From the IMG/VR virus record IMGVR_UViG_3300046557_000504, positions 1 to 42,182 of that record: a DNA stretch of 42,182 bases, one strand, 5' to 3'. The position numbers were made by a program, and so were the translations under genes. This document shows, piece by piece, positions 13,332 to 42,182 of the stretch (positions within the stretch are counted from its first letter, which is position 1; the number at the start of each line of letters is the position of its first letter). The notes under the pieces were generated by a model, which was given only the letters and a program-made list of their open reading frames with translations, was not told the origin of the DNA and ran no database searches. Source of the DNA: a virus.

Positions 13332-13375
13332 CGTCTCATTTTGCCCTAGAAATGAGACGCCCGAAGTCACAAAAT
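13332..13375 (+). promoter_or_regulatory. late promoter candidate 1 (inverted repeat plus -10) for the lysis genes
   Basis: Inverted repeat CGTCTCATTT (13332-13341) and AAATGAGACG (13350-13359) around the loop TGCCCTAG. A -10-like CAAAAT starts at 13370, 24.5 bases from the dyad centre. The same repeat and spacing occur at 39492 and 41407. There is no recognisable -35, as expected for an activator-dependent promoter. It would drive holin, endolysin, Rz/Rz1. Confidence 0.55.
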
Positions 13376-13437: not shown

Positions 13438-13845
13438 ATGCAACACCTCACGATGAAAGCACAAATGAGCGAACCGATATCTGGCGCAGCCGCCGGCGCC
13501 GTGGGCTGGAAACTCATCGGAGGCGCGGCTGGCGTCGGCGCGATCGGGGCCGGCCTGGCCGCGGTGGTGGTGATGTGCGCGATGACCCCGCGCAGCGCCA
13601 AGGAATGGACCACCGGGATCATCTCGACCGTGATGGCCTCGATCGGCGGCGGCGCGGCCGTGATCCAGCATTTCGAGCTGCAGGCGTGGGCCCAGTCGCC
13701 GTTCGGCCTGATGGCGATGCTGGCCCTGGTGTTTGCCTGCGGCCTGCCCGGCTGGGCGCTGGTGCGCTGGCTGTTCAACTACATTGCCAAGCGCAAGGAC
13801 AGCGACCTGGCCGACGTCGTCGAGGAAGTGAGGGGTGCGCTGTGA
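13438..13845 (+). CDS. holin-like membrane protein
   Basis: The product has 135 residues counted from the first ATG; ATGs at 13453 and 13465 are also in frame. Three hydrophobic segments: GWKLIGGAAGVGAIGAGLAA onward, GIISTVMASIGGGAAV, and LMAMLALVFACGLPGWALV. The C-terminal tail is charged (KRKDSDLADVVEEVRG). Position directly before the endolysin and topology support a holin. The choice of start is uncertain: GGAG at 13421-13424 is rather far from 13438, and GAAAG at 13455-13459 would serve 13465. Use of two starts, giving a holin and an inhibitor, is possible but not shown. Its stop overlaps the endolysin start (GTGA). Confidence 0.7.
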   Translation: MQHLTMKAQMSEPISGAAAGAVGWKLIGGAAGVGAIGAGLAAVVVMCAMTPRSAKEWTTGIISTVMASIGGGAAVIQHFELQAWAQSPFGLMAMLALVFACGLPGWALVRWLFNYIAKRKDSDLADVVEEVRGAL

Positions 13846-14492
13846 ACCGCGCGCAGCTGCTGGCGATCGAGCCGGGCGCGTCCAAACAGGCCGACCAGTT
13901 CCTGGCGCCGCTGAATGCGGCCATGGAGCGCTTCGGCATCGACAGCCCGGCGCGCCAGGCCGCGTTCGTCGCCCAGCTGCTGCACGAGTCGCGCAGCTTG
14001 ACGGCGATGGAGGAAAGCTTCAACTACAGCCCGGGCAACCTGACGGCCACCTTCAACACGGCTACGGCGCAACGCTTCACCCCCGAGCTGGCCGGGCAGT
14101 ATGGCCGCACCGCGCAGCGCCCGGCCAACCAGACGATGATTGCCAATACCGCCTACGCGAACCGGATGGGCAACGGCACGATCGAGTCCGGCGACGGCTG
14201 GCGCTACCGTGGCCGCGGGCCCGGGCAGCTGACCGGAAAGGATAACTACACGCGCTGCGGCGCGGCGCTGGGCCTGGACCTGGTCAACCATCCCGACCTG
14301 GTGGCGCAGCCGGAAACGGGCTGCCTCGCGTTCGCCTGGTTCTGGGCGCAGGGCAACCCGGCCGGCATCAACCTGAACCTGCTGGCCGACGCCGGCAAGA
14401 TCGAACTGCTCAGCCGGGCCGTCAATGGCGGCCCCAACGGGCTGGCCCAGCGCGTGGCACTGACCCAGCGCGCGCTGCAGGTGCTGGCTTGA
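13842..14492 (+). CDS. endolysin, GH19 chitinase-like family
   Basis: The product has 216 residues with a GTG start at 13842 after GAGGGG at 13830-13835. The segment AFVAQLLHESRSLTAMEESF carries the candidate catalytic E49, followed by FNYSPGNL and later GWRYRGRGPGQLTGKDNY, the hallmark blocks of phage GH19-type muramidases/endochitinase-like lysins. There is no signal peptide, so it depends on the holin for access to peptidoglycan. It lies in a holin-endolysin-Rz-Rz1 cassette with 4-base overlaps on both sides. Confidence 0.85.
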   Translation: MNRAQLLAIEPGASKQADQFLAPLNAAMERFGIDSPARQAAFVAQLLHESRSLTAMEESFNYSPGNLTATFNTATAQRFTPELAGQYGRTAQRPANQTMIANTAYANRMGNGTIESGDGWRYRGRGPGQLTGKDNYTRCGAALGLDLVNHPDLVAQPETGCLAFAWFWAQGNPAGINLNLLADAGKIELLSRAVNGGPNGLAQRVALTQRALQVLA

Positions 14493-15058
14493 ACGCGCTG
14501 CTGGCGCAGGCCCGGGCGCTGGTGCTGCCGTGGTGGGTGAAGTGGGCCGCGCTCGGCGCGCTGCTGGTCGCCGTGTACGGCCTTGGCCGGCTGCAGGAAG
14601 CGCGGCGCGGCGCCGACGCGATGGCCGACTACGTGGCGCAGCAGGCCGCGCACACGGCCTTCATCGTCAAGCGCGAGGTGCAGGTGGTCACGCAGGTGGA
14701 AATCCAGTACCGCGACCGCATCCAGAAAATCTACGTCCAAGGTGAACAAATTGAAAACCGCATTCCCGCCGTGCTTACGGCGGATGTCGACCGCCGCCTG
14801 CCTCTGCCTGCTGGCTTCGTGCGCATCCTCGACGCCGCCTGGTCAGGTGACCCTGTTGGACCCGCCGCCGATTCTGACCGCGAACCCGCCGCCGTTCCGC
14901 CCAGCGTCGTCGCCGCCAACGAAACCGGCAACGCCACCAGCTGCCGCGCCTGGCGCGCGCAAGCCCTCGGATGGCGCACGTTCTACGCCGGACAGCAGCT
15001 AGCGGTGAATGGCCGGGCAGGTGACTGGGCAGAGCGAGAAGTAAGCAACCCGCAGTAA
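14489..15058 (+). CDS. Rz: i-spanin (Rz-like)
   Basis: The product has 189 residues with a TTG start overlapping the endolysin stop (TTGA at 14489-14492). One N-terminal transmembrane segment (WWVKWAALGALLVAVYGLG) is followed by a periplasmic helical region (REVQVVTQVEIQYRDRIQKI), the expected layout of an inner-membrane spanin. The 3' half has a second gene in another frame (Rz1). The C-terminal part of the translated protein is Pro/Ala-rich and probably constrained by the overlapping gene. Together with Rz1 it would disrupt the outer membrane at lysis. Confidence 0.75.
   Translation: MNALLAQARALVLPWWVKWAALGALLVAVYGLGRLQEARRGADAMADYVAQQAAHTAFIVKREVQVVTQVEIQYRDRIQKIYVQGEQIENRIPAVLTADVDRRLPLPAGFVRILDAAWSGDPVGPAADSDREPAAVPPSVVAANETGNATSCRAWRAQALGWRTFYAGQQLAVNGRAGDWAEREVSNPQ
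14751..15002 (+). CDS. Rz1: o-spanin lipoprotein (Rz1-like) embedded in Rz
   Basis: It lies wholly inside Rz in another frame. The best start is TTG at 14751 with AAGGTG at 14739-14744 (spacing 6), giving 83 residues. Alternatives are GTG at 14742 and ATG at 14784. The N-terminus KTAFPPCLRRMSTAACLCLL runs into the lipobox LLASC, followed by CASSTPPG and a very Pro-rich mature part (DPPPILTANPPPFRP). A lipobox plus a Pro-rich short tail is diagnostic of Rz1 outer-membrane spanins. Confidence 0.75.
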   Translation: MKTAFPPCLRRMSTAACLCLLASCASSTPPGQVTLLDPPPILTANPPPFRPASSPPTKPATPPAAAPGARKPSDGARSTPDSS

Positions 15059-15195: not shown

Positions 15196-15984
15196 ATGGC
15201 AATACCTATCATTCCCTGGATGGGCGGCAAGCGCCGCCTCGCTGATCACCTGATCCCGCAGTTCCCGCCTCACAAGTGCTACGTCGAGGTGTTCGCGGGC
15301 GGCGCGGCGCTGTACTTCATGCGCCCACCGGCCGAGGTCGAGGTGATCAACGACATCAATGGTGAGCTGGTCCGACTATATCGGGTGGTTCAGAACCACC
15401 TCGAGGAGTTTGTGCGACACTTTAAGTTCGCCTTGTCGAGCAGGGAAGTGTTCAAGTGGCACCAGATCACGCCACCCGATACCCTGACCGACATTCAGCG
15501 CGCGGTCCGGTTTTTCTATCTGCAGCAGCAGGCATTTGGTGGCAAGGTCGATGGGCAAAACTGGGGGACCGCCACGACCACCCCGCCGGTGAATTTGCTG
15601 CGCATCGAGGAAAACCTCTCGGCCGCCCACTTGCGCCTGGCTGGTACGTACATCGAAAACATGGACTGGTACAAGCTTATCGAGCGCTACGATCGTCCCC
15701 ACACCCTGTTTTACCTCGACCCGCCGTATTGGGAGACCGAAGGCTATGGGGTCGATTTTGGCATGGCGGAGTATGAAAAGATGGCCGAGTTGATGGCCAG
15801 GATACAGGGCAAGGCGATCGTGAGCCTGAACGACCATCCAGCCATCCGTAGGATTTTCGCCGCGTTCCAGATGGATACGGTCCCGATCTCGTATATCGTC
15901 GGCGGCCCTGGAAAGACGGTCGATCGATCCGAGGTGATCATCTACAGTTGGGACCGTTCGGAGGATCCGGTAGGGCTCTTTTAG
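15196..15984 (+). CDS. orphan N6-adenine DNA methylase (D12/Dam class)
   Basis: The product has 262 residues. Motif X/I region: PWMGGKRRL near residues 7-15, the SAM-binding block YVEVFAGGAALYF at residues 29-41, and catalytic DPPY at residues 175-178. This order places it in the alpha-class (D12) N6-adenine methyltransferases. No restriction endonuclease gene is adjacent, so it is most likely protective, masking phage DNA from host restriction, or regulatory. The ribosome site AAAAGG at 15183-15188 lies 7 bases from the ATG. Its base composition is a little more AT-rich than the preceding lysis genes, which hints at separate acquisition. Target sequence unknown. Confidence 0.85.
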   Translation: MAIPIIPWMGGKRRLADHLIPQFPPHKCYVEVFAGGAALYFMRPPAEVEVINDINGELVRLYRVVQNHLEEFVRHFKFALSSREVFKWHQITPPDTLTDIQRAVRFFYLQQQAFGGKVDGQNWGTATTTPPVNLLRIEENLSAAHLRLAGTYIENMDWYKLIERYDRPHTLFYLDPPYWETEGYGVDFGMAEYEKMAELMARIQGKAIVSLNDHPAIRRIFAAFQMDTVPISYIVGGPGKTVDRSEVIIYSWDRSEDPVGLF

Positions 15985-35631: not shown

Positions 35632-36645
35632 ATGACCCAGCTCATCCTCAAGGTGATCGCTCACCACCCGATGCAACGCACCTCCCAGCTGGCCGACCGC
35701 CTCGACGTCGCGCTTGATGAAGTGGACCGCCAGCTGCGCCCGCACTTGGTGGCCGGCAACGTGATCGAACACGAAGTTACCGGCCCCAACGGTCGCCCGG
35801 CGATGGCCTACGAGCTGAGCGAGCAGTTCAAGGCAGGCGAGCTGGGCCGCGCCATCATGGCTACCACCAGCCGCGCCACGTTCCCTGCCGTGCCCACCTT
35901 CGTGCCAAGAGCAACGCCCGGACCTGCGCCGACAGCAGCGCCGACGCCAGCAGCGACGCCTGCAGCGACGCCAGCACCGACGCCAGCACCGACGCCAGCA
36001 CCGACGCCAGCACCGACGCCAGCACCGACCGCTGCACCAGCTGCTGCGTCAGCAGCGCCGGCTACGAGCAACGTTCCGGCGTACGCGGGAACCAAGGTCG
36101 ACCGCGCGATCGCCTGCCTCACCCGGCACGGCACGCTCTCGACCGGCCAACTGCGTATCGACATCGGCCTGCGCCCCGGCGACCACCCATCGGCCTACCT
36201 TAGAACCGCACTGCGCACCGGTCTCATCAAGCGCGACGGCGACTACTGGAGCCTCGGACCGGTCCAGCCATCAGCGCCGCCAGCTTTACCCGCGGCTGCC
36301 CCCGAAGCAAAAAAAGACGCCCTCGCATCCGGCGCCACCCTCGGCCAGCGCCCCGTCGATCCCGTACCTGCCAGGATCGCTGCGCCAGCCGGTACGGCCG
36401 CCACCAGCTACCGATGCGCCCTATGGTCGGACGGGGTGCTCGAGGTACAGAAGGATGGCGTCACGGTCGCCGAGATGCCGCAGGCCGCCGGTGAGTCGCT
36501 CGCCGCCTTTCTCGGTCGGCTAGCCAGGGAGGTAGGTACGGGCCTGGCTAGGCCCGGCCCCACCCCCGGGTTAGGTTCTTCCGAGGGGAGGGCAGGCAAG
36601 GGTAATTCAGACCCTGTCGCCGCTCTAGTCACAGCTCATCCTTAA
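35632..36645 (+). CDS. winged-helix protein with Pro/Thr/Ala repeat linker
   Basis: The product has 337 residues with two winged-helix units. The first is at residues 1-70 (LILKVIAHHPMQRTSQLADR, EVDRQLRPHLVAGNVIEHEV). The second is at about 155-210 (KVDRAIACLTRHGTLSTGQL, AYLRTALRTGLIKRDGDYWS). They are separated by a linker of repeated A-P-T-P encoded by five perfect 12-bp repeats. The C-terminal third is low in structure. It precedes the small terminase and may be a regulator of packaging or transcription; the exact role is unknown. Confidence 0.6.
   Translation: MTQLILKVIAHHPMQRTSQLADRLDVALDEVDRQLRPHLVAGNVIEHEVTGPNGRPAMAYELSEQFKAGELGRAIMATTSRATFPAVPTFVPRATPGPAPTAAPTPAATPAATPAPTPAPTPAPTPAPTPAPTAAPAAASAAPATSNVPAYAGTKVDRAIACLTRHGTLSTGQLRIDIGLRPGDHPSAYLRTALRTGLIKRDGDYWSLGPVQPSAPPALPAAAPEAKKDALASGATLGQRPVDPVPARIAAPAGTAATSYRCALWSDGVLEVQKDGVTVAEMPQAAGESLAAFLGRLAREVGTGLARPGPTPGLGSSEGRAGKGNSDPVAALVTAHP
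35967..36026 (+). repeat. 12-bp minisatellite in the linker of the winged-helix gene
   Basis: Five perfect copies of GACGCCAGCACC in a row, encoding a T-P-A-P period, with degenerate copies upstream (35936-35966). In-frame repeat number changes would alter the linker length without breaking the gene, so the copy number may vary between phages. Confidence 0.9.
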
Positions 36646-37186: not shown

Positions 37187-39207
37187 GCGACATGTACGAG
37201 GTCCTCAACTGGGATTCGCCCGAGCTGGCGAAGACGGTGGGCCGGGGCCTGAGCACGTTCGGCGTGCCGGCGCCGGTCACGCTCGAGGAGTGGGCGCGCA
37301 AGCACTTCTACCTCTCGAAGGAATCCTCGTACGTGGAGCAGAGCTGGGTGCCGTGGGGCTTCCAGCGCGCAATCCTGGCCTGCATCAGCAATGACGATAT
37401 CCGCGCGATCGACTTCAAGAAATCGGCCCGCGTCGGGTACACCAAGATGCTGCTGGCGGCGATCGGGTACTTCGCGGAGCACAAGCGGCGCAACCAGGTG
37501 CTGTGGCAGCCGACCGATGGCGACAGCGACGAGTTCGTGAAGAACGAGCTCGACACGATGCTGCGCGACGTGAAGGTGATGGCCAAGGCCATGCCGTCGC
37601 ACGTGTCGCGCCACAAGGACAACACGCTGGCGCAAAAGAAGTTCCTCGGTTGCCTGCTGCATACCCGTGGCGGCACGGCGGCGCGCGCCTACAGGAGGAT
37701 CTCGGTGGACGTGGCCTTCCTGGACGAGCTGGACGCGTTCGACCGCGACATCGAGAAGGAAGGCTCGCCGGACGCACTGGCCGCCAAGCGGGTCGAGGGC
37801 GCCACGTTCCCGAAGATCGTGACCGGCTCGACGCCCAAGCTAGCCGGGTTTTCCCTGATCGACGACCGCTACAACCAGGCGGACGAGCGCTTCAAGTACG
37901 CGATTCCGTGCCCGGAGTGTGGCGGGTTCCACGTGCTGGCGTGGGGCAAGAAGGACGAAGAGACCGGCCTCAAGTGGACCGATGGCGACCCGGCGACGGT
38001 GCGGCACCTGTGCCCGCACTGCGCCTGCCTGATCGACCAGGGCCAGTTCCTCGCGGTCGCCGACCGTGGGCGCTGGCAGAACGCGGATGCGACCATCACG
38101 ATCGACGCGGAAGGCGTGTTCCGCAACGCCGCGGGCGACATTATCGCGCCGCTCGAGCACCTCGCGTTCCACGTGTGGACCGCGTATAGCCCGCTGGTCT
38201 CGTGGAGCACGCTGGTGCAGGAATTCCTCGACGCCTATGCCAATGCGCAGGGCGGCGACATCAGGCTGCTGAAGACCTTCACCAACACGACGCTGGGCGA
38301 GACCTGGGCGCTGGAGCAGGAAAAGAGCGATGCCGAGCAGCTCAAGGCGCGCGCCGAGCCGTACAAGTTCGGCACCGTGCCGAAAGGCTGCGTGCTGCTG
38401 CTGGCCGGGTGCGACACGCAGGACAACCGGATCGAGGTCACGGTACGCGGCTATGGGCGCGGGTGCGAGACCTGGGCCATCGACCACCGCATCTTCTACG
38501 GCAACCCGAACGAGGACCAGGTCTGGCAGGACGTGGCCGAATACCTGTTCGAACACGAGTTCCTGCACGCCGGCGGCGCCAGGCTCCCGATCTACGCCTC
38601 GGCGATCGACACTGGCGGCCACTACACCCAGGCGGTCTACAGCTTCGTGCACATGCATGCCGGCATGGGGCGCCGGATCTTCGCGGTGCGCGGCCGCCCG
38701 GGCCGTGAGAAGCACATCAAGGACGGCGTGGCGAAGGTCGACATCGACTGGCGCGGCAAGAAGCGCAAGCGCGGCGTGATCCTGTGGCACGTGGGCACCA
38801 ACCTGGCGAAGGACCTGATCTACGGCCGCCTGCAGATCGAGCGCCCGGGCCCGGGCTACATGCACTTTTCCAACGATGGAACCGAGGAGTACTTCCGGCA
38901 GATGGCCGGCGAGGCCCGGGTCGAGCGGGCGACCGCCGGCGGCAGGGAATCGCGCTGGACCGCGCTGCGCAAGCGGGTCGAGGCCTGGGACTGCACCGTC
39001 TACGCGGTATGGCTCGAGACGCACCTCGATCTGAGCCGCAAGCCGGCGCGCTACTGGGAGCAGCTCGAAGAGCAGGTGCAGCCGGCCATCGGCGACCTGT
39101 TCGCCTCCGCGCTGCCAGCGGACGATCTGCCGCGGCCACTGCCGGCGCCCCCGCGTGTCGTGGGCGGCAAGATTTCGCTGGCGGGAACGCGGAGGGGGAC
39201 GGCGTGA
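37183..39207 (+). CDS. terL: terminase large subunit (lambda gpA family)
   Basis: The product has 674 residues. The ATPase motor has a Walker A-like KKSARVGYTKM at residues 79-89 and Walker B VAFLDELD at 177-184. A zinc-ribbon-like insert at residues 243-280 (CPECG ... CPHCAC) is typical of the gpA family. The nuclease domain lies in the C-terminal half (IYASAIDTGGHYTQAVYSFV and after). gpA-type terminases usually cut at cos sites, so a cos mechanism is suggested. It starts inside the terS stop and its own stop overlaps the next GTG. Confidence 0.92.
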   Translation: MSDMYEVLNWDSPELAKTVGRGLSTFGVPAPVTLEEWARKHFYLSKESSYVEQSWVPWGFQRAILACISNDDIRAIDFKKSARVGYTKMLLAAIGYFAEHKRRNQVLWQPTDGDSDEFVKNELDTMLRDVKVMAKAMPSHVSRHKDNTLAQKKFLGCLLHTRGGTAARAYRRISVDVAFLDELDAFDRDIEKEGSPDALAAKRVEGATFPKIVTGSTPKLAGFSLIDDRYNQADERFKYAIPCPECGGFHVLAWGKKDEETGLKWTDGDPATVRHLCPHCACLIDQGQFLAVADRGRWQNADATITIDAEGVFRNAAGDIIAPLEHLAFHVWTAYSPLVSWSTLVQEFLDAYANAQGGDIRLLKTFTNTTLGETWALEQEKSDAEQLKARAEPYKFGTVPKGCVLLLAGCDTQDNRIEVTVRGYGRGCETWAIDHRIFYGNPNEDQVWQDVAEYLFEHEFLHAGGARLPIYASAIDTGGHYTQAVYSFVHMHAGMGRRIFAVRGRPGREKHIKDGVAKVDIDWRGKKRKRGVILWHVGTNLAKDLIYGRLQIERPGPGYMHFSNDGTEEYFRQMAGEARVERATAGGRESRWTALRKRVEAWDCTVYAVWLETHLDLSRKPARYWEQLEEQVQPAIGDLFASALPADDLPRPLPAPPRVVGGKISLAGTRRGTA

Positions 39208-39488
39208 ACACCGATCCCGATCCGGACATCGTGGCCGTGATCCTTGCGGCCTGCCGCGCCTGCGGCTTCGATGACGGCACCGCGCGCGAGATCGAAGGCC
39301 GGATCCGCGCCGAGTACGGCGGCCTGCGCGTGCGCATCCCGAAGCGCAAGAAGCACCCCACGCCGCACGAGCGCGAGCAGGTGCACGCCGACGGCGTGAC
39401 CAGCATGAGCAACGACGAGATCATCCAGAAGCATGGCATCAGCCGCGCCACGCTGTACCGCCTGATGAAGCGCACCGCGACCGAATAG
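39204..39488 (+). CDS. Mor/C-type transcription activator
   Basis: The product has 94 residues with a GTG start overlapping the terminase stop (GTGA). The N-terminal dimer part is DIVAVILAACRACGFDDGTA and GRIRAEYGGLRVRIPKRKK. The C-terminal helix-turn-helix is MSNDEIIQKHGISRATLYRL. This is the layout of the Mor/C family of Mu late/middle activators, which bind dyads upstream of promoters lacking a -35. A dyad with a -10 at constant spacing begins 3 bases after its stop and recurs twice more, at 41407 and 13332. It is the likely late-gene activator. Confidence 0.78.
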   Translation: MNTDPDPDIVAVILAACRACGFDDGTAREIEGRIRAEYGGLRVRIPKRKKHPTPHEREQVHADGVTSMSNDEIIQKHGISRATLYRLMKRTATE

Positions 39489-39491
39489 CGT

Positions 39492-39535
39492 CGTCTCAAT
39501 TTGCCCTGTTTTGAGACGGGCGAACTCCCTACACT
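39492..39535 (+). promoter_or_regulatory. late promoter candidate 2 (inverted repeat plus -10) for the portal block
   Basis: CGTCTCAA (39492-39499) and TTGAGACG (39511-39518) around the loop TTTGCCCTGTT. -10-like TACACT at 39530-39535, 25 bases from the dyad centre. No -35. It lies between the Mor-like gene and the gpW-like gene. Confidence 0.55.
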
Positions 39536-39558: not shown

Positions 39559-39786
39559 ATGGCCGGAATCACGCTAGAACAAGCACAGACGCAGCTCAAT
39601 GCCTACATCGCGGCCGAAACCGCGGTGCTGACGAGCCAGGTGTATGAAATCGCCGGGCGCAAGCTGACCCGCGCCAACCTGATGGAGATCCAGCGCGGGA
39701 TCGACCTGTGGAACACCCGCGTCGCCACGCTGACCCAGCGCGCCGCTGGCCGCGGGCGCGCACGCACCATCGTGGCGGGGGGCTGA
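39559..39786 (+). CDS. head-tail connector protein (gpW/DUF6148-like)
   Basis: The product has 75 residues: MAGITLEQAQTQLNAYIAAE, SQVYEIAGRKLTRANLMEIQ, then a basic tail (AAGRGRARTIVAGG). Two helices around a short beta hairpin, as in gpW/DUF6148 proteins that sit between terminase and portal genes. Expected at the portal ring, where it helps retain DNA and join the tail. TGGGAG precedes the ATG; it lies 24 bases after the promoter candidate. Confidence 0.75.
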   Translation: MAGITLEQAQTQLNAYIAAETAVLTSQVYEIAGRKLTRANLMEIQRGIDLWNTRVATLTQRAAGRGRARTIVAGG

Positions 39787-39787
39787 G

Positions 39788-41395
39788 ATGGCCGCCCCTA
39801 CCGGACCGTTCAACCAGCAGAACCTGCTCGACAAGGCAATCGCCTACGTCGCCCCGAAACTCGCACAGCAGCGCATGGTCGCGCGCGCCGCGCTCGCGCT
39901 CGGTGGCGGTTATACCGGCGCCCGGGTCGACCTGGCCACCCTGAACCGCTGGTCCCCGACCGCCGGCTCGGCCAACGCCGACACGATCCGCGACCTGCCG
40001 ACCCTGCGCTCGCGTTCGCGCGACCAGATGCGCAACGCGCCGGTCGCCCTGGGCGCCCTCAACACCATGGTCAGCAACGTGGTCGGCACCGGCTTGTCGT
40101 ACACGCCAGCGATCGACAAGGGCTTCCTCGGGCTGGCCGATGACGACGCCGACGCCTGGGCCGCGGACACCAAGCGCCGCTTCGACCTGTGGGCCGTCTC
40201 GCCTGACTGCGACGTGGGCCGCCGGCTCAACTTCTACGGCCAGCAGGAGCTGGGCTTTCGGTCGATGCTCGAAAGCGGCGACAGTTTCTGCGTCACCCCG
40301 CGCGTGGCGCGCTCCGGCCAGGCGCCGCGCCTGGCGCTGCAGCTGATCGAGGCCGACCGGGTGTGCAACCCGAACAAGGCGGCCGATACCGACAAGCTGA
40401 TCGCCGGGATCGAAATCGACCCGGATACCGGCGAAGCGATCGCCTGCCATTTCGCGAAGAAGCACCCGGGCGACCCGCACGGAAGCGCCGGCAACACCTG
40501 GACCCGGGAGCCGATGCGCGGCGCGGCCACGGGGCGGCGCAATGTGCTGCACCTGTTCAAGCCGACGCGTCCGGACCAGGTGCGCGGGGTGCCGATGATC
40601 GCGCCGATCCTCGAGCCGCTCAAGCAGCTGAGCCGCTGGACCGACGCGGAGCTCAATGCCGCCGTCGTCAGCAGCCTGTTCAGCGTGTTCGTCAAGATGG
40701 ACCCGGAGGCATTCCAGGACATGTTCGACGATGACGCGCGCGGCGCGATCATCGACAAGGCCAGCAACTGGAGTGGCGAGATGGAGTCGGGCAAGGCGAT
40801 CAACCTCTTGCCCGGCGAAGACATCGTGACGACCACGCCGGGGCGCCCGAACCCGGAGTTCGACCCGTTCTGGGCGGCGATGGTGCGCCAGATCGGCATG
40901 GCGCTCGAGCTGCCGTACGAAGTGCTGGTCATGCACTTCCAGAGCAGCTACAGCGCCTCGCGGGCCGCGCTGCTGATGGCATGGAAGGCGTTCCGCAGCC
41001 GCCGCGATTTCCTCGTCACCTACTTTTGCCAGCCGGTGTTCGAGCTCTGGCTGGCCGACGAAGTGGCCGAGGGCCGGATCAGCGCGCCCGGCTTCTTCGC
41101 CAGCGACCTGGTACGCGCTGCCTGGTGCGGCTCGATGTGGACCGGCGACGGGCCGGGCAGCATCGACCCGGACAAGGAAGTCACAGCGGCGCAGAAACGG
41201 ATCGACCTGGGCATCAGCACCAAGGAGGCCGAAAGCGTGCTGTACGACGGCATCCCGTGGCAGGTCAAACACGAACAGCGGGTCAAGGAGATCAACGCGG
41301 AAAAGCGCGCCGGCATCTACTTCCCGCCGGCCGGCACGCCCGCGGTGGCGGCCGCGCCGGCGGACGTGGCCGATGCCGTGCCGGCGCCTGATTGA
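39788..41395 (+). CDS. portal protein (lambda gpB family)
   Basis: The product has 535 residues. YTGARVDLATLNRWSPTAGS and RSRSRDQMRNAPVALGALNT near the N-terminus are typical of lambda-family portals. The stem/clip region includes LLPGEDIVTTTPGRPNPEFD, and LELPYEVLVMHFQSSYSASR is a strongly conserved block. It forms the dodecameric vertex through which DNA enters and leaves; the C-terminus (PAAPADVADAVPAPD) is low-complexity. One base separates it from the preceding stop. Confidence 0.92.
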   Translation: MAAPTGPFNQQNLLDKAIAYVAPKLAQQRMVARAALALGGGYTGARVDLATLNRWSPTAGSANADTIRDLPTLRSRSRDQMRNAPVALGALNTMVSNVVGTGLSYTPAIDKGFLGLADDDADAWAADTKRRFDLWAVSPDCDVGRRLNFYGQQELGFRSMLESGDSFCVTPRVARSGQAPRLALQLIEADRVCNPNKAADTDKLIAGIEIDPDTGEAIACHFAKKHPGDPHGSAGNTWTREPMRGAATGRRNVLHLFKPTRPDQVRGVPMIAPILEPLKQLSRWTDAELNAAVVSSLFSVFVKMDPEAFQDMFDDDARGAIIDKASNWSGEMESGKAINLLPGEDIVTTTPGRPNPEFDPFWAAMVRQIGMALELPYEVLVMHFQSSYSASRAALLMAWKAFRSRRDFLVTYFCQPVFELWLADEVAEGRISAPGFFASDLVRAAWCGSMWTGDGPGSIDPDKEVTAAQKRIDLGISTKEAESVLYDGIPWQVKHEQRVKEINAEKRAGIYFPPAGTPAVAAAPADVADAVPAPD

Positions 41396-41406
41396 CATGC
41401 GCAAGT

Positions 41407-41450
41407 CGTCTCAATTTGCCCTGTTTTTGAGACGCCCTGACCGATAGAGT
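41407..41450 (+). promoter_or_regulatory. late promoter candidate 3 (inverted repeat plus -10) for the protease/capsid block
   Basis: CGTCTCAA (41407-41414) and TTGAGACG (41427-41434) around the loop TTTGCCCTGTTT. -10-like TAGAGT at 41445-41450, 24.5 bases from the dyad centre. Upstream GCAAGT is shared with the copy at 13332. No -35. The protease ATG is at 41481. Confidence 0.55.
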
Positions 41451-41480: not shown

Positions 41481-42182
41481 ATGAAACTCATTGACATCCT
41501 GACTTCGCCCTGGGCGATCGAACCGAGCAAGCTCCTCGAGCTGCAGGCGATCTACCTGGCGCACGTGCGCGGCGAGGCGGTCGATATCGAGGCGGTCGAA
41601 AAGCGCCTCGGCCGCCCGCTCGCCAACGACCAGCGCAGCTACGACGTCATCGACGGCGTGGCCGTGCTGCCGATCGAGGGCGTGGTCGCGAAGAAGATGA
41701 ACATGTTCAGCCAGATTTCTGGCGGGACCAGCAGCCAGCTGGCACAACGCAGCCTGGCCCAGGCGGTCAACGACCCGGCGGTGCACAGCATCGTGCTGGC
41801 GATCGACAGCCCTGGCGGCACCGTCGATGGCTCGCAGGCTTTCTCGGATGCGATCTTCGCCGCGCGCAGCGCCAAGCCGGTCGTCACGCACGCCGGCGGC
41901 ACCATCGGCAGCGCCGCGTACTGGTTCGGCAGCGGCGCCGGCAAGGTCTATCTGGCCGACACGACCACCAGTGCCGGATCGATCGGGGTGGTCACCACGC
42001 ACGTCGACGTCAGCGGCGCGGAAGCGGCGCGCGGCGTCAAGACCACCGAACTGAGCGCCGGCAAATACAAGCGCATCGCCAGCCAGTACGCGGCGCTCTC
42101 GGAAGAGGGGCGCCAGTCGATTCAGGACCAGCTCGATTACATGTACTCGCTGTTCGTCGGCGCCGTCGCCAAGAACCGCGGC
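41481..42182 (+). CDS. S49 head maturation protease, N-terminal part (partial)
   Basis: The first 234 codons run off the window end. MKLIDILTSPWAIEPSKLLE, then the protease core: VAVLPIEGVVAKKMNMFSQI, LAIDSPGGTVDGSQAF (oxyanion region), S144 in GTIGSAAYW as nucleophile, and SAGKYKRIAS with the general-base Lys (K195 or K197). This is the ClpP-like Ser-Lys dyad of phage SppA-type S49 enzymes. It ends at VAKNRG, and family members continue with a few residues and then VLANMADG, which is encoded at base 2. Cleaves scaffold during capsid maturation. Confidence 0.92.
   Translation, partial: MKLIDILTSPWAIEPSKLLELQAIYLAHVRGEAVDIEAVEKRLGRPLANDQRSYDVIDGVAVLPIEGVVAKKMNMFSQISGGTSSQLAQRSLAQAVNDPAVHSIVLAIDSPGGTVDGSQAFSDAIFAARSAKPVVTHAGGTIGSAAYWFGSGAGKVYLADTTTSAGSIGVVTTHVDVSGAEAARGVKTTELSAGKYKRIASQYAALSEEGRQSIQDQLDYMYSLFVGAVAKNRG

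Follow-up and report, generated by a model that had tools for sequence, protein, structure and literature searches.

Candidate late promoters of a lambda-headed phage and a Mor/C-like protein as their probable activator

Comparison of a 42,182-nucleotide stretch of viral DNA (IMG/VR record IMGVR_UViG_3300046557_000504, positions 1 to 42,182; hereafter the window) with about 100 related viruses leads us to propose, with high confidence, that three short inverted repeats in it serve a temperate lambda-headed phage as sigma70 late promoters and depend on an activator, a Mor/C-like protein encoded just upstream of the second repeat. The 94-aa protein encoded at 39204-39488 is very probably the activator, and would act at promoters lacking a -35 element as Mor and C of phage Mu do, with a different site geometry. 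The comparison, which is one of sequences, indicates both which protein acts and which of its amino acids read which DNA letters.

Three dyads precede late gene blocks

The initial annotation had described a dyad at 13332-13359, 39492-39518 and 41407-41434, always intergenic and always ahead of late genes. We verified these coordinates and found the inverted repeats to be exact, with none arising in 100 dinucleotide shuffles; all three lie between genes, and downstream of them are, respectively, the holin-like and endolysin genes, a gpW-like connector gene with the portal gene, and the S49 protease gene. The word TTGCCCT is present in the loop of all three copies, together with the arms GTCTCA and TGAGAC. 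Copy 2 is situated between the Mor-like gene and the gpW-like connector, and copy 3 between the portal and the S49 protease. A fourth copy was sought in the window and none was found, the closest other matches to the left half GTCTCANNTTGCCCT having 3 mismatches, which is the chance level. The record also contains an integrase gene (phrog_1) and lambda-type head genes. The sites, the hexamers and the neighbouring genes are as follows.

13333..13358, + strand: copy 1, putative activator site (GTCTCA 13333-13338, TTGCCCT 13341-13347, TGAGAC 13353-13358), before the lysis genes
13370..13375, + strand: copy 1, -10-like hexamer CAAAAT, 29 nt from the TTGCCCT start, position confirmed in relatives
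13465..13845, + strand: holin-like gene (phrog_1024), downstream of copy 1, holin role assigned from position and from the equivalent gene in locus L255
ORF to 14492: endolysin (phrog_181), after the holin-like gene
14489-15058: Rz-like spanin, after the endolysin
39204..39488, + strand: Mor-like helix-turn-helix protein, 94 aa, recognition helix SRATLYR, proposed activator, upstream of copy 2
39493..39517, + strand: copy 2, putative activator site (left arm 39493-39498, TTGCCCT 39501-39507, right arm 39512-39517), before gpW/portal
39530..39535, + strand: copy 2, -10 hexamer TACACT
39559..39786, + strand: gpW-like head-tail connector gene (phrog_118, DUF6148)
39788..41395, + strand: portal protein gene (Phage_portal_2)
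41408..41433, + strand: copy 3, putative activator site (left arm 41408-41413, TTGCCCT 41416-41422, right arm 41428-41433), before S49 protease/capsid
41445..41450, + strand: copy 3, -10 hexamer TAGAGT
41481..42182, + strand: S49 head-maturation protease gene (phrog_53), cut by the record end

Two other features of the window are a DNA methyltransferase gene (phrog_56, 15196-15984) directly 3' of the lysis cassette, and a 12-nt tandem repeat at 35899-36050, within the ORF at 35632-36645.

The central word keeps the phase of the -10 hexamer

The -10 hexamers had been placed at 24.5, 25 and 24.5 bases from the dyad centres. The hexamers themselves stand (starting at 13370, 39530 and 41445; CAAAAT of copy 1 is the weakest of the three), while the centre as their anchor does not: the distance from the start of TTGCCCT is 29 nt in all three copies, and across relatives this distance remains constant while the centre moves. 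The nearly constant spacing from the dyad centre in the window is therefore a by-product. Indeed, when the -10 is chosen independently, the dyad centre is at its modal distance in 0.39 of sites versus 0.74 for the TTGCCCT start, and we rejected the centre as the anchor.

We collected all exact TTGCCCT words, unfiltered, within 135 nt of a gpW or S49 start, from loci fetched by the motif and by protein (gpW, S49 and Mor). At 117 of these 118 words, A-11 and T-7 of a sigma70-type -10 are found at +29 from the word start, versus 31 cases for the next-best offset; the reverse strand contains 5 such words, versus 118 on the forward strand. Between the left arm and TTGCCCT there are 2, 3 or 4 nt, and between TTGCCCT and the right arm 3, 4 or 5 nt; when the sites are grouped by loop length, the -10 peak keeps a constant distance to the left side and not to the right arm. 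If the -10 is picked independently, +29 is found in 12/12, 11/11, 4/4, 2/2 and 3/3 sites of separate arm-gap classes. It is also the commonest offset in the 24-nt class (21/40), in which 10 sites have a rival AT-rich hexamer at +21. At several gpW sites (e.g. in L067, L078, L091 and L228) the right arm is poor or absent, and the left arm, TTGCCCT and the -10 are kept.

A profile of 113 sites reads aagTcGTctCAAtTTGCCCT(A/G)TTT, T at -16 and (T/G)AnA(G/C)T, with A at -9 in 97% of sites. It contains no canonical -35 consensus, in agreement with the earlier statement that the promoters lack one. Together with the 117 words in phase, this profile displays the organization by which a Mor/C-dependent promoter is recognized, namely a -10 that is present and a -35 replaced by the activator site. 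We also observed variants of the central word (CCCCCCT, CCTCCCT, TCCCCCT and TTCCCCT, in L195, L230, L241, L099, L210, L203, L229 and L248), which have arms of the GTCTCA or GTGCCA type and for the most part keep the -10 phase.

Distribution of the element in phages and genomes

The initial annotation had proposed a search of related phages for the motif. Using the pattern GTCTCA-N1-4-TTGCCCT-N2-7-TGAGAC, we retrieved 45 stretches in viral contigs and 18 in the genomes of 84,980 species. The viral matches and some 8-9 of the genome matches mostly precede the same late genes, so that the element is found before gpW/portal and S49 blocks in dozens of uncultured phages and prophages, and before a lysis cassette in several records. 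The genome matches at phage loci belong to Rhodoferax, Massilia, Janthinobacterium, Nitrotoga, Oxalobacteraceae, Burkholderiaceae and Rhodospirillales. Janthinobacterium psychrotolerans S3-2 (L062) and Massilia sp. Root418 (L055) are examples of culturable lysogens with the system. A mobile hairpin scattered through host genomes was sought in the 84,980 species genomes and was not seen; apart from phage loci the scan returned about 10 isolated matches, most of which have neither a -10 at +29 nor phage genes, and we rejected a mobile repeat as the explanation.

The core element occurs 35 times in 16 phage records, one to three times each and on one strand only within each record, and a reversed control pattern has no matches in these 16 records. 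Additional sites precede a holin-like/endolysin cassette (L030, L039 and L255), a small holin-like gene (L046), a tail-like gene (L008) and an inserted gene of 759 aa (L010), the functions named last being guessed from sequence and position.

In most loci a Mor-like homologue immediately precedes the gpW site, even where the terL belongs to another lineage (~29% identity). Among gpW loci with enough upstream sequence, and with sites scored by hand-set thresholds, 57 have both Mor and a site, 10 neither, 3 a site only and 17 Mor only, the last meaning no site above threshold and including several loci with variant words such as CCCCCCT. At one locus with a site and no Mor (L016), the Mor gene is on the same contig, in L088. 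Two loci, L187 and L057, have good sites before gpW and no Mor-like gene detected in the locus. In cultured phages with homologous portals (KT1, PVP-XSN and phi3LM21), no Mor-like gene was detected in the fetched region and the element is absent upstream of gpW. Eight loci (L231, L235, L237, L239, L240, L244, L246 and L251) have a remote Mor-like gene and no TTGCCCT element upstream of gpW; several of them show AAAGTC(G/T)CA ... TAGAAT-like sequences, perhaps another class of site in the same system.

Arms and recognition helices change together

The base pair beside the arm, T-A in one copy and A-T in the others, had been read as evidence that pairing is kept while bases change. The difference is real in the window, but general upkeep of the pair is not seen among relatives, which have 58 A-T and 6 T-A but also 14 C-T and 4 G-T. 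The informative compensatory changes affect positions 3-5 of the arm and are seen in other phages, whose left and right arms occur as GTCTCA/TGAGAC, GTGCCA/TGGCAC, GTGCAA/TTGCAC, GTGTCA/TGACAC, GTTTCA/TGAAAC, GTGACA/TGTCAC, GTCGCA/TGCGAC and GTCCCA/TGGGAC. Within one phage the arms of the gpW and S49 sites are concordant in 32 of 35 contig groups, a value reached by 0 of 20,000 permutations; 8 of the 32 have arms other than GTCTCA, and the 3 discordant groups show small arm degeneration or mis-framing.

The recognition helix of the adjacent Mor-like protein tracks the arm in 70 of 71 rows. GTCTCA is accompanied by helices of the SRATLYR type, (S/G)R(A/S)xxYR (52/52), GTGCCA by the SRRTLYR type (5/5), GTGCAA by SRRT with the last R changed to N or Y (3/3), GTCGCA by [DH]RATLYR, in which D or H replaces S (3/3), and GTTTCA by SKTTLWR (4/5, with L226 and L227, in which one arm base is degenerate, placed in this class manually). 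The proposed code comprises at least 5 arm classes with a helix signature, and more with single examples. In the sole exception, L086, the S49 site has GTTTCA arms and the helix is SRATIYR.

On a tree built without the helix columns, the helix-arm pairs arise several times, with 3-5 changes per class. Most branches of this tree are poorly supported because the protein is short, and a paired test on the well-supported branches comprises 5 independent pairs only, of which 4 agree (p 0.125). L182 and L183 provide a natural helix swap: their N-terminal parts are nearly identical, their helices are different and their arms differ to match. New loci fetched by protein served as a forward test, in which one arm or both had to show the predicted letters where the classes differ; L286, L288, L289, L290, L299, L301, L302 and L314 all follow the rule, L303 being excluded as a repeat of L226. 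L289 is a hybrid, with left arm GTGCCA and right arm TGAGAC. Very remote loci from the protein searches, L293 and L294, have no site. Given that the helix tracks the arm in nearly every row and that the new loci agree, we consider the protein encoded at 39204-39488 very probably the activator; its earlier nomination as a candidate is strongly supported by this near one-to-one match of arm and helix.

Relationship of the Mor-like protein to Mor and C

Membership of the Mor/C family appears well supported for the homologues as a family and marginal for the window's sequence alone. Pfam Mor (PF08765) is matched by 20 of 22 homologues at E<=0.1 (best 1.3e-6), and phrog_532, "late transcriptional activator", by 19 of 22, with the window's protein at 3e-4. 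Relative to the Pfam Mor gathering cut-off of 24.9 bits, the L042 protein is above (27.4) and the window's protein below (13.2). No INPHARED record matches the window's protein; a second homologue has a single weak match there (26% identity, E 0.04), annotated as a late transcriptional activator. The AF2 model of the window's protein is of moderate quality (pLDDT 78.7, pTM 0.41), and its most plausible solved relative by Foldseek is Mu C in an initiation complex (9l0x; probability 0.77, E 0.15, a weak match). Fold comparison with VIA gave Z 4.3 over 90 residues with an rmsd of 8.7, a middling Z in a search dominated by generic helix-turn-helix folds, and a sequence profile search of the PDB reached Mor (1rr7) at E 0.47 only. 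Taking sites and protein together, there is a strong case that the Mor-like protein would work like Mor and C.

Proposed mechanism and alternative explanations

We number the promoters on the assumption that the -10 hexamer starts at -12, and the start points are predicted accordingly. The Mor/C-like protein, presumably as a dimer, would place its two helix-turn-helix recognition helices on the arms, at about -49 to -44 and about -31 to -26, on either side of the fixed central TTGCCCT at -41 to -35, exactly 22 bp from the -10 hexamer; symmetric arms that track the recognition helix fit a dimer on an inverted repeat. By analogy with Mu Pm, the dimer would straddle the two arms, its centre above TTGCCCT, and the activator site would stand in for the -35 element, so that the bound protein recruits or activates host RNA polymerase at the -10 for transcription of the gpW-portal, protease-capsid-tail and lysis genes. 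Phase is kept by the word and not by the arms, which suggests that the centre of the complex sets the polymerase contact, with flexibly tethered helix-turn-helix domains giving specificity. The earlier proposal that one activator switches three late promoters thus gains strong support from the fixed-phase -10, the placement before late blocks, the arm concordance within each phage and the helix-arm match.

The dyads could instead act as folded RNA or DNA (a terminator, processing site or cruciform between late genes), the fold and not a bound protein being what functions. The perfect inverted repeat, its variable loop length and the compensatory arm changes between phages would all suit such a fold. 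Yet sites such as the gpW sites without a right arm retain the rest of the element, the arms at separate sites of one phage change together and follow the helix of a protein, and the stem is not immediately followed by a run of T. Since the element can do without its right arm, and its separate sites change in concert, we rejected the hairpin or terminator and regard this explanation as extremely improbable.

Two further alternatives accept that a protein reads the arms. The Mor-like protein might bind and repress the late genes: the helix-arm match speaks to binding and not to activation, and the right arm overlaps the usual -35/spacer region. Set against repression are the strict phase between word and -10, the homology to Mor/C activators and the phrog_532 late activators, and the site profile, which has no -35, so that there would be no unaided strong promoter to repress; we think an operator of this kind very unlikely. 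Another phage or host factor might read the arms, with the helix match reflecting linked inheritance of adjoining DNA, since the Mor-like gene is close to the gpW site and both can move together by recombination. The S49 site, ~2 kb or more distant, nevertheless matches equally well, distant lineages repeat the same pairing of helix residues and arm, and in L182 and L183 nearly identical N-terminal parts are joined to different helices with matching, different arms. We give such a factor hardly any credence, and favour activation by the Mor-like protein.

Within the literature collection searched, we found no description of this regulon or of late gene control for this phage group. We consider it reasonably probable that the elements represent a widespread late regulon of uncultured lambda-headed phages, so far undescribed, with a Mor-like activator, a natural arm code, an asymmetric TTGCCCT that sets the -10 phase and floating half-sites, one of which can be lost. 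The natural paired variants of helix and arm make a DNA-recognition rule for Mor-like proteins directly testable and supply candidate orthogonal activator-promoter pairs, and the element allows late operons of uncultured phages to be called. Should the word be read by a surface other than the helices (the centre of the Mor-like protein, or sigma or alpha), this would be a three-contact activator site, which is not described for Mu.

Comparison with known systems

At Mu Pm, a dyad-bound Mor dimer contacts polymerase and takes the place of the -35 element; the arms are of 5 bp with a 6-bp spacer, in a 16-bp site centred at -43.5, at one promoter (PMC4390567, PMC4287176). The system proposed here resembles it in having a small phage helix-turn-helix activator of the same Pfam family, a dyad upstream of and overlapping the -35 region, a G/C-rich centre between half-sites, and a -10 without a -35 for sigma70 polymerase. 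The Mu geometry is not reproduced: the arms are of 6 bp and 12-15 bp apart in most relatives, giving a site of 24-27 bp whose centre is ~24-25 bp upstream of the -10 start, near -37 and thus about half a helical turn nearer the -10 than in Mu. Unlike Pm, the site is anchored by TTGCCCT, its arms slide, its right arm is optional and there are usually 2-3 promoters per phage.

Mu C is a single activator for several late promoters including lysis (lys, I, P and mom), each with a dyad (PMC4287176, PMC4461284). In site layout, on which this comparison rests, the present phages are similar, with several probable late promoters including lysis, one proposed activator and a dyad at each. Mu, however, is a transposable phage, whereas the record studied here has an integrase gene and head genes of the lambda type.

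The portal and head genes are related to those of the lambda family. Late control in lambda involves one late promoter and the Q antiterminator; here, by contrast, several promoters of the activator type would lie inside the late region.
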